The position numbers were made by a program, and so were the translations under genes. A DNA stretch of 64,000 bases from an uncultured Pelagibacteraceae bacterium (GTDB lineage: Bacteria; Pseudomonadota; Alphaproteobacteria; Pelagibacterales; Pelagibacteraceae), in the NCBI GenBank assembly GCA_902558585.1, contig CACEEO010000002.1, forward strand, positions 1-64,000, given 5' to 3'. Position 1 is the stretch's first letter. Each line of letters begins with the position of its first letter. Shown piece by piece: positions 58,863 to 64,000 of this stretch. The notes below the pieces were generated by a model. It had not been told where the DNA came from, did no database searches, and saw nothing but the letters and a program-made list of their open reading frames with translations.

Positions 58863-59561
58863 TTATATTTTAAAATTAGATTTCTCGCTATCAACAAGAA
58901 AAGCTTTGACTGTTTCTATAGTTAATTGATTGAATGATTTTCCAAATTTTTCTATTTTCTCAATTACAGCTGGAGGGATAGTAATTATATGACAGCCCAA
59001 TTGTTTGGCTTGTAAATAATTATATGGTTCTCTAACACTTGCCCATAAAATTTCTACATTTTTAAATCTCTTAGCTAATTTTATACTTTTAGTAAATTCT
59101 GGGATTGGATCCTTACCAGTGTCTCCTGCTCTTCCAGCAAAAATTGATATTATCACTTTTGTTTTTTTATTTATTACTTTAAGTATTTTTGCAGTTTGTT
59201 TAGCTGTATATACTGCGGTTATATTTAACTTAATATTTTTATTATTAAGCTCTTTAATTACATTTCCTGTAAACTTATTTTTTGAGTTAACCACTGGAAC
59301 TTTAACGTATATGTTTTTACCCCAGGTATTTATTTTTTTTCCTTGCTCAATCATAGATTTTTGATCATCAGCAAATACTTCTAAAGAAATGGGTTTAGTT
59401 CTACAAACTTTAAGTAATTGTTTAGAGTAAGACTTATAATCTTTAGCGCCAGCTTTTCTCATTAGGCTTGGATTAGTTGTAAATCCTTTAACAATTTTTG
59501 TTTTATTAAATTTTTTAATTAAAGAGATGTCTGCAATGTCACAAAAAATTTTTATATTCAT
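58863..59561 (-). CDS. Transaldolase family / fructose-6-phosphate aldolase-like
   Basis: IFCDIADISLIKKF, KGFTTNPSLM, YVKVPVVNS, NITAVYT, SIFAGRAGD. Confidence 0.9.
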   Translation of the reverse strand: MNIKIFCDIADISLIKKFNKTKIVKGFTTNPSLMRKAGAKDYKSYSKQLLKVCRTKPISLEVFADDQKSMIEQGKKINTWGKNIYVKVPVVNSKNKFTGNVIKELNNKNIKLNITAVYTAKQTAKILKVINKKTKVIISIFAGRAGDTGKDPIPEFTKSIKLAKRFKNVEILWASVREPYNYLQAKQLGCHIITIPPAVIEKIEKFGKSFNQLTIETVKAFLVDSEKSNFKI

Positions 59562-59566
59562 AAGAT

Positions 59567-60961
59567 CTACAAATTCTTTGTAATATCCTCTGTCATTTTT
59601 TTTGCATCTGCAAAAAGCATTAAGGTGTTTTCTTTATAGAATAAATCATTATCTATTCCTGCATATCCTGGGGATAAACTTCTTTTTACAAACAATACAG
59701 ATTTACATTTTTCCACGTCTAGAACTGGCATTCCATAAATTGGGCTTTGTGGATCTGTTTTTGCAACTGGATTAGTCACATCATTGGCTCCAATTACAAA
59801 AGCAACATCTGCATTAGCAAAATCATTATTGATTTCCTCTAATTCAAATACTTCATCATAGGGTACGTTTGCTTCTGCTAATAATACATTCATGTGTCCT
59901 GGCATCCTGCCAGCAACAGGGTGAATAGCGTAGGAGACTTTAATATCGTTTTTTTTTAGTGTATCTACCATTTCCCTTAAAGCATGCTGTGCTTGTGCCA
60001 CTGCCATTCCATACCCTGGAACGATTATAACTGAAGATGCATTTTTCATTAAAAAAGCTGCATCATCTGCATTACCGCTTTTTACTGGTTTTTGTTCTTT
60101 GCTTTGACTTCCAGAAGTTTGGTCTGTAGCTCCAAAACCACCTAAAATTACATTAAAGAATGATCTATTCATTCCTTTACACATTATATACGAAAGTATT
60201 GCACCAGATGATCCAACCAATGCCCCTGTAATAATTAAGGCTGTGTTTTCCAAAGTAAATCCAATTCCAGCTGCAGCCCAACCTGAATAAGAATTTAACA
60301 TTGAAATTACAACTGGCATATCTGCACCACCAATTGGAATAATAATTAAAAATCCAATTAAAAAAGAAATTGCAATTATTATCCAAAATAAATTAGATGA
60401 TTGTTTTGAGCAAAGATAAATAGTTAAAATTACAATCAAAATTAACAACAATGCATTTAATAAATGTTGGCCTTTAAAAGTTATTGGTGCGCCTGACATT
60501 ATTCCTTGTAATTTTAAGAATGCTATAACAGATCCAGAAAAAGTAATTGCACCAACTGCTGCTCCAATTGCCATTTCAATTAAGCTTGCAAGTTTAATAT
60601 TTCCTGGTGTTCCAAGATTAAATGCAGATGGATTAATAAATGCAGAGATTGCTACAAATACAGCTGCTAAACCAACTAAACTATGAAAGCCTGCAACTAA
60701 TTCTGGCATTGCAGTCATAGGGATACGATATGCTATAAATGCACCAATGCTTCCACCAATAGCTAAAAATATTAAAACATAGACAAATCCAGAACTAAAA
60801 TTACCGACTGACAAAAATGTAACTGTTACGGCAATAACCATTCCAATTATCCCAAACAAATTTCCTTGTCTTGAAGTTTCAGGAGAAGACAAACCTCTTA
60901 AAGCTAAAATAAATAATACCCCAGATACTAAATATAAAATTGCAGATAGATTTGCAGACAT
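59567..60961 (-). CDS. pntB: NAD(P) transhydrogenase beta subunit
   Basis: VIVPGYGMAVAQAQHALREM, IHPVAGRMPGHMNVLLAEANVPYDEV. Confidence 0.96.
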   Translation of the reverse strand: MSANLSAILYLVSGVLFILALRGLSSPETSRQGNLFGIIGMVIAVTVTFLSVGNFSSGFVYVLIFLAIGGSIGAFIAYRIPMTAMPELVAGFHSLVGLAAVFVAISAFINPSAFNLGTPGNIKLASLIEMAIGAAVGAITFSGSVIAFLKLQGIMSGAPITFKGQHLLNALLLILIVILTIYLCSKQSSNLFWIIIAISFLIGFLIIIPIGGADMPVVISMLNSYSGWAAAGIGFTLENTALIITGALVGSSGAILSYIMCKGMNRSFFNVILGGFGATDQTSGSQSKEQKPVKSGNADDAAFLMKNASSVIIVPGYGMAVAQAQHALREMVDTLKKNDIKVSYAIHPVAGRMPGHMNVLLAEANVPYDEVFELEEINNDFANADVAFVIGANDVTNPVAKTDPQSPIYGMPVLDVEKCKSVLFVKRSLSPGYAGIDNDLFYKENTLMLFADAKKMTEDITKNL

Positions 60962-60964
60962 TAA

Positions 60965-61273
60965 TTATTTATCCTTTTTCTTTTTTTTATACATTGCTAA
61001 CATTCTTTGGGTGACTAAAAATCCGCCAAAAATATTAACAGCTGCTAAAATAATTGCTAAAAATCCATAAATACTAGATGATGAAAAAACTACTCCATCA
61101 CTTCCAGACAAAGCTGCAATTATCGCACCTACGATGATTACTGAAGAAATTGCATTCGTAACTGACATTAAAGGAGTATGTAAAGAAGGTGTTACACTCC
61201 ACACAACATAGTAGCCAACAAATATTGATAATATAAATATACTTAATCTGAATATAAAAGGGTCTATTTCCAT
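60965..61273 (-). CDS. NAD(P) transhydrogenase alpha subunit, membrane part
   Basis: TPSLHTPLMSVTNAISSVIIVGAI; between pntB and pntAa. Confidence 0.93.
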   Translation of the reverse strand: MEIDPFIFRLSIFILSIFVGYYVVWSVTPSLHTPLMSVTNAISSVIIVGAIIAALSGSDGVVFSSSSIYGFLAIILAAVNIFGGFLVTQRMLAMYKKKKKDK

Positions 61274-61277
61274 AATT

Positions 61278-62366
61278 CTACTTGATAAGTGTTTTCTCTA
61301 TTATTTCATCCTCTAAATTAATATTTAATTTCTTATTTTCTTTATCATATAAATTAGAGATAAAATTAAATACATTTTTAGCATATAAATTAGAAGCTGA
61401 TACAGGTAATTTATTTAATATATTTGCCTCACCTAAAATTTTAACACCATTTTTTTCAACAATTTTATCAACCTCAGTAAATACAGTGTTTCCTCCTTGA
61501 ACTGCTGCTAAGTCATAAATGACTGAACCTGGTTGTAAATTTTTAAACATATCCTCTTTAATTATCTTTGGAGCTTCTCTACCTGGGATTAAAGCAGTGC
61601 ATATTATTATATCAATTTTTTTTAATGTTTCTGAAAGCAGTTCTTCTTGTTTCTTTTTAAATTCATCTGACGCTTCTTTTGCATAACCACCTTCTGTTTC
61701 TAAATTCTCAGATCCTTGAACTGTAAGAAATTTTCCTCCTAAACTCTCAACTTGTTCTTTTGAGGCCATCCTTACATCTGTTGCAAATACTACAGCTCCC
61801 ATTCTTTTAGCAGTTGCGATAGCTTGTAATCCGGCGACTCCAGCTCCAACTACTAATACTTTTGCTGCAGGAATTGTTCCTGCTGCAGTCATCATCATTG
61901 GAATTGCTCTCTCATAAACTTGGAAAGCCTCTACCACCGCTTTGTAACCAGCAAGGTTAGCTTGTGATGATAAAATATCCATTGATTGCGCTCTTGTAAT
62001 TCTTGGTAGCAACTCCAAAGAAAAACAGTTTACTTTCTTTGACTTTAAATTCTCTAATTTTTCTTTATTTACAAAAGCGTTTAATGAGCCAATTAAAGTT
62101 TGGTTTTCCTTAAAAAATGAAAATTTTTTCTCAACAGGTAATCCTAATTGAATAACAATCTCAGAATTTTTAATTATTTCTTCTTCATTATCTGAAAAAT
62201 TAACTCCTAAATTTTTATATTCTTCGTCAGTAAAACCTAAGTAAGTTCCATAATTATTTGGTAAAGTTAAATTAAATCCTAAACTAATATATTTTTTTGC
62301 AATTTCCGGGGTAATCGCTATTCGCTTTTCAATATCTAGATTTTCTGAAATTGAAGCTAAATTCAT
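61278..62366 (-). CDS. pntA: NAD(P) transhydrogenase alpha subunit, soluble part
   Basis: EKRIAITPEIAKKYISLGF, VVGAGVAGLQAIATAKRMGAVV. Confidence 0.95.
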   Translation of the reverse strand: MNLASISENLDIEKRIAITPEIAKKYISLGFNLTLPNNYGTYLGFTDEEYKNLGVNFSDNEEEIIKNSEIVIQLGLPVEKKFSFFKENQTLIGSLNAFVNKEKLENLKSKKVNCFSLELLPRITRAQSMDILSSQANLAGYKAVVEAFQVYERAIPMMMTAAGTIPAAKVLVVGAGVAGLQAIATAKRMGAVVFATDVRMASKEQVESLGGKFLTVQGSENLETEGGYAKEASDEFKKKQEELLSETLKKIDIIICTALIPGREAPKIIKEDMFKNLQPGSVIYDLAAVQGGNTVFTEVDKIVEKNGVKILGEANILNKLPVSASNLYAKNVFNFISNLYDKENKKLNINLEDEIIEKTLIK

Positions 62367-62386
62367 AATAAAAATAAATTAAAATA

Positions 62387-62497
62387 CTATAAAAGAAATA
62401 TTGCCATTAAAACTAAAACTGAGATTACTGCGACAGTTCCCCACAAAACAAATTTTGTAAAGTTATTCCAAGTATTTTTATGGTTTTCATTATCCAT
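62387..62497 (-). CDS. 36-aa single-TM peptide resembling aa3-type cytochrome c oxidase subunit IV
   Basis: Manual translation MDNENHKNTWNNFTKFVLWGTVAVISVLVLMAIFLL*; not in ORF track. Confidence 0.7.
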   Translation of the reverse strand: MDNENHKNTWNNFTKFVLWGTVAVISVLVLMAIFLL

Positions 62498-62501
62498 AAA
62501 A

Positions 62502-62627
62502 TTACTTTTGTCTTGCTTTAAATTTTGGATTAGTTTTATTTATTACGTAAAGTCTTCCTCTTCTTCTTACAAGTTTAGAGTTAAGATCTCTTTTTTTTAT
62601 TGATTTTAATGAACTTTTTATTTTCAT
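62502..62627 (-). CDS. rpmJ: 50S ribosomal protein L36 (zinc-free type)
   Basis: Manual translation [41 protein letters not shown]; not in ORF track. Confidence 0.92.
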
Positions 62628-62643
62628 AATTAATTATTATTAA

Positions 62644-62761
62644 TGCCTGGCAACGTCCTACTCTTCCATGTCTTAAGACAAAGTACCATTGGCGCAGAAA
62701 GGCTTGACTTCCGAGTTCGGAATGGGATCGGGTATAACCCTTTCGCAATAATCACCAGGCA
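62644..62761 (-). rRNA. rrf: 5S ribosomal RNA
   Basis: Minus strand TGCCTGGTGATTATTGCGAAAGGGTTATACCCGATCCCATTCCGAACTCGGAAGTCAAGCCTTTCTGCGCC...GACGTTGCCAGGCA; helix I TGCCTGG/CCAGGCA; canonical CCGAACTCGGAAG loop. Confidence 0.96.
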
Positions 62762-62766
62762 CCGAG

Positions 62767-62795
62767 CTTATATATAATTTTATAAATTTGGTAAA
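62767..62795 (-). promoter_or_regulatory. Candidate promoter for 5S rRNA (TTTACC-17-TATAAG)
   Basis: Minus-strand hexamers placing the start near the 5S 5' end. Confidence 0.35.
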
Positions 62796-62807
62796 GGATT
62801 TTTTCTC

Positions 62808-63809
62808 TTAAAAAAGCTTATTTTTCCAAGTAAGTGGAGTGTTTTCATTATCTATTTCAAGCATATAATTGTACTTAAATTCTTTTGTGCCATTTTTTTT
62901 TATGAATTCAATCAACTTGTCAATAGACTGAGATAATGGAACTTTAGTCTGATAATTCAATAATTTTCTCGCTTTATTTGATGAACAAGTCGCATGTTTA
63001 ACTTCATTAGGTCTTTCATCAGTATATTCCGGGTCTTGATTAAATTGAAGTTTATTAGATATCAATTTATAAAGTTCATTGATTGATATAAATTCCTCAT
63101 CTGGACCAATGTTTACAATTTCAGATACAATATTTGGATCTGTAATAAGTTTGTCTAGACAATAAATGCAATCCTCAACATCAGAAAAACATCTTTTTTG
63201 TTCACCATCTCCATATATAATTGGTTTGCGGTTCTGAAGTATCAAATTGATCATAATTGAAACTACATTTCTAAATGGATCGTCATATTTTTGTTTTGGG
63301 CCAATTATATTGTGAGGAACTGCGATATTATACTCCACACCATGTGTATCACACAAAATTTGTAATATTCTTTCTGCAGCAACTTTTGAAACTCCATATG
63401 GATCTACAGGATTAATAAGATCATTTTCATTAAATGGAACTTTTATATTTCCATATCTTGCCATTGATGAACAATAAACAATTCTTTTTACTTTATTTCT
63501 TATACCTGATGTAAAAACTGAAACACTACCTGTAACATTATTATTACAAACTAATGTTGGTGATATACTAGACAACCCCTCGTGTGCGTAGGCAGCTGCA
63601 TGACATATTACATCTACACCTTTTGTTGCTCTAGTCATAAAGTCTAAATCTTCACAATCTCCTTGATAAAAAATAGCTTTTGGATTTACGAAGTCTCTAT
63701 CTCCACCTACTAAATTATCACATCCAGAAACTTTGTAATTTTTGTTTACATAGTAATCAGCTAAATTTGATCCAAGAAAACCAGCTATTCCAGTGATAAA
63801 TATATGCAT
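62808..63809 (-). CDS. NAD-dependent epimerase/dehydratase (extended SDR)
   Basis: MHIFITGIAGFLGSNLADYYVNKNYKVSGCDNL; YGVSKVAAERIL. Confidence 0.92.
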   Translation of the reverse strand: MHIFITGIAGFLGSNLADYYVNKNYKVSGCDNLVGGDRDFVNPKAIFYQGDCEDLDFMTRATKGVDVICHAAAYAHEGLSSISPTLVCNNNVTGSVSVFTSGIRNKVKRIVYCSSMARYGNIKVPFNENDLINPVDPYGVSKVAAERILQILCDTHGVEYNIAVPHNIIGPKQKYDDPFRNVVSIMINLILQNRKPIIYGDGEQKRCFSDVEDCIYCLDKLITDPNIVSEIVNIGPDEEFISINELYKLISNKLQFNQDPEYTDERPNEVKHATCSSNKARKLLNYQTKVPLSQSIDKLIEFIKKNGTKEFKYNYMLEIDNENTPLTWKNKLF

Positions 63810-64000
63810 TTAATTTTTCTTTTTTTTAAAAACTTTTGAAAAAAAATCCACAAATTTTTTCCACCATAATTTCATGGTTGCTATAAAACCTGCAATTAAA
63901 CCAATAATTACTTGGACAACTATACTAGCTGAACCTGGGTCAACATAAGCTTGAGCACTAGAAAATAATATTAAATTTATCAATAAAAAGTTTAATAAAA
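63810..64000 (-). CDS. Small exported/membrane protein with AYVDPGSAS motif (N-terminus outside window)
   Basis: Manual translation ...LLNFLLINLILFSSAQAYVDPGSASIVVQVIIGLIAGFIATMKLWWKKFVDFFSKVFKKKKN*; stop immediately upstream of the epimerase start. Confidence 0.7.
   Translation of the reverse strand, partial: LLNFLLINLILFSSAQAYVDPGSASIVVQVIIGLIAGFIATMKLWWKKFVDFFSKVFKKKKN

Follow-up and report, generated by a model that had tools for sequence, protein, structure and literature searches.

The window, that is, the first 64000 bases of contig C2 in an assembly (G000) of 44 contigs, almost certainly ends at the 5S-side edge of the SAR11 hypervariable region HVR2, where the stable flank stops at a lone 5S rRNA gene and an exchangeable island of surface-polysaccharide genes begins. 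One end of this island is contained in the assembly. The first-pass annotation had read the end of the window as the 5S-side border of a SAR11 hypervariable region with polysaccharide genes, and this reading is supported by the gene content, by the split rRNA genes of relatives and by the break in synteny. The host belongs to the Pelagibacterales. HVR2 has been described as a stretch of cell-surface genes, about 48 kb long, that separates the sole 5S gene from the 23S gene (PMC2217521), and the same layout and exchange of islands have been reported in PMC2217521, PMC4053759, PMC4033161 and PMC7318151. The features on both sides of the 5S gene are listed in Table 1.

Table 1. Coordinates of the features at the junction between core flank and island
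Feature	Position	Strand	Evidence or remark
pntB, pyridine nucleotide transhydrogenase	59567-60961	-	core flank
Transhydrogenase small subunit	60965-61273	-	core flank
pntA, pyridine nucleotide transhydrogenase	61278-62366	-	core flank
aa3-type cytochrome c oxidase subunit IV-like gene (36 aa)	62387-62497	-	PF07835, E 4.4e-11, 43.3 bits vs cutoff 22
rpmJ, ribosomal protein L36	62502-62627	-	PF00444, E 3.9e-17; start codon 17 nt after 5S 3' end
Orphan 5S rRNA gene, border marker	62645-62759	-	Rfam RF00001, 91.9 bits, E 1.6e-18, full model
Probable 5S promoter	62760-62795	-	TTTACC (62790-62795), 17-nt spacer, TATAAG (62767-62772), 7 nt to 5S 5' end
NAD-dependent sugar epimerase/dehydratase, first island gene	62808-63809	-	333 aa, PF01370, E 2.5e-44
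Small AYVDPGS membrane-type protein (66 aa)	63810-64000 in window	-	start at contig position 64010, outside window

The 5S rRNA gene at the end of the window

On its own strand the 5S gene is preceded not by a 23S gene but by the epimerase and the AYVDPGS protein, as the first-pass annotation had stated. The epimerase lies 48 nt upstream of the 5S gene, and its best solved relative is the UDP-glucose 4-epimerase 4zrm (E 9e-39). When the contig was followed rightwards to its end at 75926, 11.9 kb past position 64000, no 23S gene was met, and a 23S gene immediately beyond the window, the finding named beforehand as decisive against this reading, is ruled out. None was found in the whole assembly (71% complete) either. 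A search of all contigs returned a single 5S gene; thus, one flank of the island is the sole 5S gene of the assembly, unlinked to a 23S gene. A search of the assembly for the 23S-side flank, with the 16S flank of the relative G017 as the query, gave weak and short matches only. In a search for phage similarity, the 5S gene itself was the sole match.

Split rRNA genes and loss of synteny

The 5S gene was located in 108 of 147 genomes of the family. In four complete relatives the other flank of HVR2, the 16S-23S pair, is present on the same strand at 46-62 kb from the 5S gene; between the 3' end of 23S and the 5' end of 5S lie 46.2 kb in G017, 61.9 kb in G003, 55.8 kb in G022 and 45.8 kb in G009. 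No 23S gene was detected in 6 of 12 complete or near-complete genomes, which may be explained by runs of N such as those in the G026 and G043 loci.

The proteins of the window region were compared with those lying within about 10 kb of the 5S gene in 20 relatives. On the core side, 12 of 13 genes are syntenic on the same strand in 11-20 of these relatives, and the most distal gene in 6. The island genes were found in none of the 20, or as superfamily matches of 25-40% identity, with the exception of Gmd at about 60%. The first gene past the 5S gene has superfamily-level matches only (25%), and for the three genes after it no match was found in these relatives. Both synteny and identity are therefore lost sharply at the 5S gene compared with the core flank.

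At the DNA level, a 12.4-kb core query is collinear in congeners at 74-81% identity, with gaps in some. A 13.1-kb island query was matched in 258 scored congeners by a mosaic of cassettes, none longer than about 3 kb, with 65-75% identity; these were chiefly the epimerase pair, the first epimerase and gmd. In all, 399 genomes were queried and 141 remained unscored, so these counts are a lower bound.

Gene content of the island

All of the 11.9 kb past the window consists of surface-polysaccharide genes, and the GC content falls from about 30% in the core to about 20-25% in the island. Moving away from the 5S gene, the first epimerase and the AYVDPGS protein are followed by a sulfatase-type membrane protein, a kinase-methyltransferase, a GT2 glycosyltransferase, a membrane protein, two epimerases, a second GT2, a GDP-fucose-synthase-like (Fcl-like) protein, a DegT aminotransferase, a GDP-mannose 4,6-dehydratase (Gmd), an unknown protein, and a fragment of an O-antigen ligase/polymerase (Wzy_C) at the contig end. 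The Fcl-like protein and Gmd constitute the GDP-fucose route. Judged from relatives, the NoeA-like kinase-methyltransferase, the membrane protein of the alkaline phosphatase superfamily (sulfatase-like) and the AYVDPGS protein probably act in modifying or capping the glycan.

An island haplotype common to distant lineages

The single-cell genome AG-901-I06, also of an uncultured Pelagibacteraceae bacterium, shares the junction of epimerase, 5S, rpmJ and pntA, equally tightly spaced, and its island follows the same gene order as far as the contig end, except that the Fcl and DegT genes are missing. In a tree of four core proteins from the pnt region, G063 and G078 are closest to the genome of the window at 0.04 substitutions per site, and AG-901-I06 stands at 0.33. 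Near their 5S genes, G063 has no match to the island and G078 has gmd only. Since the near kin are without the island and the distant AG-901-I06 carries it, core and island are mismatched: the island content does not track core relatedness.

This single-cell genome bears directly on the suspicion that a polysaccharide contig of another organism was fused to a SAR11 core at the 5S gene during binning or assembly. The genome is fragmented and incomplete and rRNA genes are common points of misassembly, which would favor such an artefact; yet AG-901-I06 repeats the order of epimerase, 5S, rpmJ and pntA, the spacing, and the upstream gene order. Misassembly at the 5S gene was rejected on the basis of this second junction of the same order, and an artefact of either kind is considered extremely improbable. 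The same comparison might be taken to favor a polysaccharide locus that is fixed and inherited vertically, lies beside the 5S gene by chance and is free of any special exchange, because the divergence of the AG-901-I06 island is core-like (about 72% DNA identity, compared with 74-77% in the core). However, the site is occupied by unrelated genes in G063, G078 and G017, the nearest relatives by core sequence, the island is absent from the 258 scored congeners, and the four-gene core tree already points to discord between island and core. A fixed locus is thus very unlikely, and the edge of an exchangeable HVR2 island is the preferred reading.

As the island identity is no higher than the core identity, the sharing with AG-901-I06 is old, with no sign of a recent transfer; judged from these identities, it would fit transfer or long retention alike.

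The core flank

The pnt genes (59567-62366) are syntenic in 19 of 20 relatives, with a median amino-acid identity of 72-87%. The neighborhood of 5S, rpmJ and pntA has already been noted (PMC2704228). As a separate observation, the pnt operon (59543-62360) is 88% identical to that of G063, compared with 79% for the core further in, and this difference suggests a separate recombination tract at the pnt operon beside the island.

A match to the Rfam 'pntA' RNA (RF01810) was also observed at 62440-62501 on the minus strand, almost wholly inside the 36-codon COX IV-like gene. Among the single-base codon differences in this gene across 28 relatives, 65% are synonymous, compared with 16% expected by random change. 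The proposed RF01810 base pairs are kept in 77% of cells, compared with 35-51% in slid controls; an RNA role in addition to coding is therefore possible. A published RNA motif of SAR11 therefore seems to overlap a protein-coding gene.

The probable 5S promoter and the gene directly after it

A sigma70-type promoter is located at a fixed distance upstream of the 5S gene in all 49 genomes examined, most commonly in the form TTTACA-N16/17-TATAAA. The mean number of mismatches to the sigma70 consensus is 2.6 of 12 at this promoter, compared with 5.6 in upstream controls, and conservation upstream of the 5S gene drops above -36. The assignment is based on this conservation across genomes rather than on a single-sequence scan, which made no call for the 5S gene in the window.

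In 48 of the 49 genomes a start codon follows the 5S end by 7-38 nt; it belongs to rpmJ in 34 genomes and to a conserved epimerase in 14. No terminator-like site was found in 62300-62900. The conserved promoter and the close next start codon indicate that 5S probably serves as the leader of a protein-coding transcript. Short intergenic gaps are usual in the streamlined genomes of SAR11, so the spacing from 5S to the next gene, taken by itself, says little for a regulatory purpose.

A broader and more doubtful proposal may be put forward tentatively: the orphan 5S of SAR11 would be transcribed from its own rRNA-type promoter and lead the mRNA of rpmJ or of the epimerase, coupling the supply of 5S to that of L36 or of a surface-glycan enzyme. 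The promoter and the 5S gene would then form a movable unit, placed on either side of the epimerase, that marks the island edge.

Several further observations concern the surroundings of the 5S gene. In the 5S loci of relatives (for example, L034-L053), a conserved epimerase of ~294 aa is found directly downstream of the 5S gene in 14 genomes, whereas 6 others have a similar one directly upstream, from which the 5S unit seems to have switched sides of this gene. Two versions of the 5S terminal stem, CCTGG...CCAGG and GCCGG...CCGGC, exist in one genus, with both strands changed and the pairing kept (L034, L036, L040, L041 and L047 compared with the window). A tRNA-Val gene lies upstream of the 5S gene in 18 relatives examined, often about 65-165 nt away; these belong to other genera (for example, L005-L009), and no member of the genus of the window has it.

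The AYVDPGS protein and its NoeA-like partner

The AYVDPGS protein matched no Pfam or NCBIfam family. The kinase-methyltransferase gene at contig positions 65359-66735 encodes a protein with 34.6% identity to NoeA over 460 aa (E 9e-87), that is, with full-length similarity. The N-terminal part has kinase-like motifs, in which the residues D116, N121 and D134 are kept; the D-x4-N and ID motifs are conserved in five aligned sequences, the strict filter having admitted 5 of 16 to the alignment. The C-terminal part is a SAM methyltransferase; its match to Methyltransf_23 (E 7e-6) falls slightly short of the curated cutoff.

NoeA-like genes are present in 15 of 397 SAR11 genomes, and in 13 of these 15 loci a small AY(V/L/I/F)DPG protein is found beside or near them, a conserved small neighbor whose match to Lani_1193 is putative. 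A pair of a small AY(V/L)DPG protein and noeA also occurs in the nodL-noeA-noeB region of S. meliloti. The Lani_1194 family has been described as kinase-methyltransferases with conserved neighbors that may decorate secreted signals or the envelope; in the same paper, Lcin_0519, a second such family from Legionella, is likened to WbdD, an O-antigen chain terminator (PMC9758233). Given this family description and the comparison with WbdD, our best guess is that the pair modifies surface glycans through predicted kinase and methyltransferase activity.

Proposed mechanism and significance

The stable chromosome flank, consisting of the pnt operon and rpmJ, ends at the lone 5S gene, with replaceable nucleotide-sugar, glycosyltransferase, polymerase and modification genes for a surface polysaccharide beyond it. 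Different lineages retain the flank and the 5S gene but differ in their islands. Whole islands and single cassettes may be swapped by homologous recombination at conserved flanks (rRNA genes and core genes). In one published account, the rRNA operon is argued to have moved along with the island in these exchanges, the crossovers lying outside it (PMC4033161). The probable benefit is an altered surface that may escape phages and grazers.

HVR2 and its exchange are already known, and the window is an ordinary, although cleanly confirmed, example with a few new details. These are the conserved 5S promoter with its close next gene and the AYVDPGS protein as the usual partner of NoeA-like genes. 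The start of an exchanged island is placed here at near base precision in another SAR11 lineage, and an old island haplotype is found in lineages that are not closest kin. A layout in which 5S acts as an mRNA leader would offer a simple, testable prediction on the balance of ribosome parts in the most abundant bacteria of the ocean.

Comparison with known systems

The closest counterpart is HVR2 of Ca. Pelagibacter ubique HTCC1062 (PMC2217521), which likewise adjoins the sole 5S gene, contains surface-polysaccharide genes, is flanked by rpmJ-pntA, and loses synteny inside. In relatives of the genome described here, the 5S gene is split from 16S-23S. In contrast to HTCC1062, the gene set and order differ from the published list, and the 23S side is absent from the assembly. 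The island also resembles the replacement flexible genomic islands (PMC4033161), in which each strain has different genes of the same general function at the same site between conserved flanks. In contrast to that work, the comparison yielded no recent identical island pair; the one haplotype that is shared is an old one, at about 72% DNA identity.

The pairing of the NoeA-like gene with a small AY(V/L)DPG protein resembles both NoeA/NoeB of S. meliloti and the Lani_1194 family. The gene described here lies in a surface-polysaccharide island, whereas noeA is part of a Nod-factor operon, and the resemblance of the sulfatase-like neighbor to NoeB is weak (21% over 107 aa, E 0.007).
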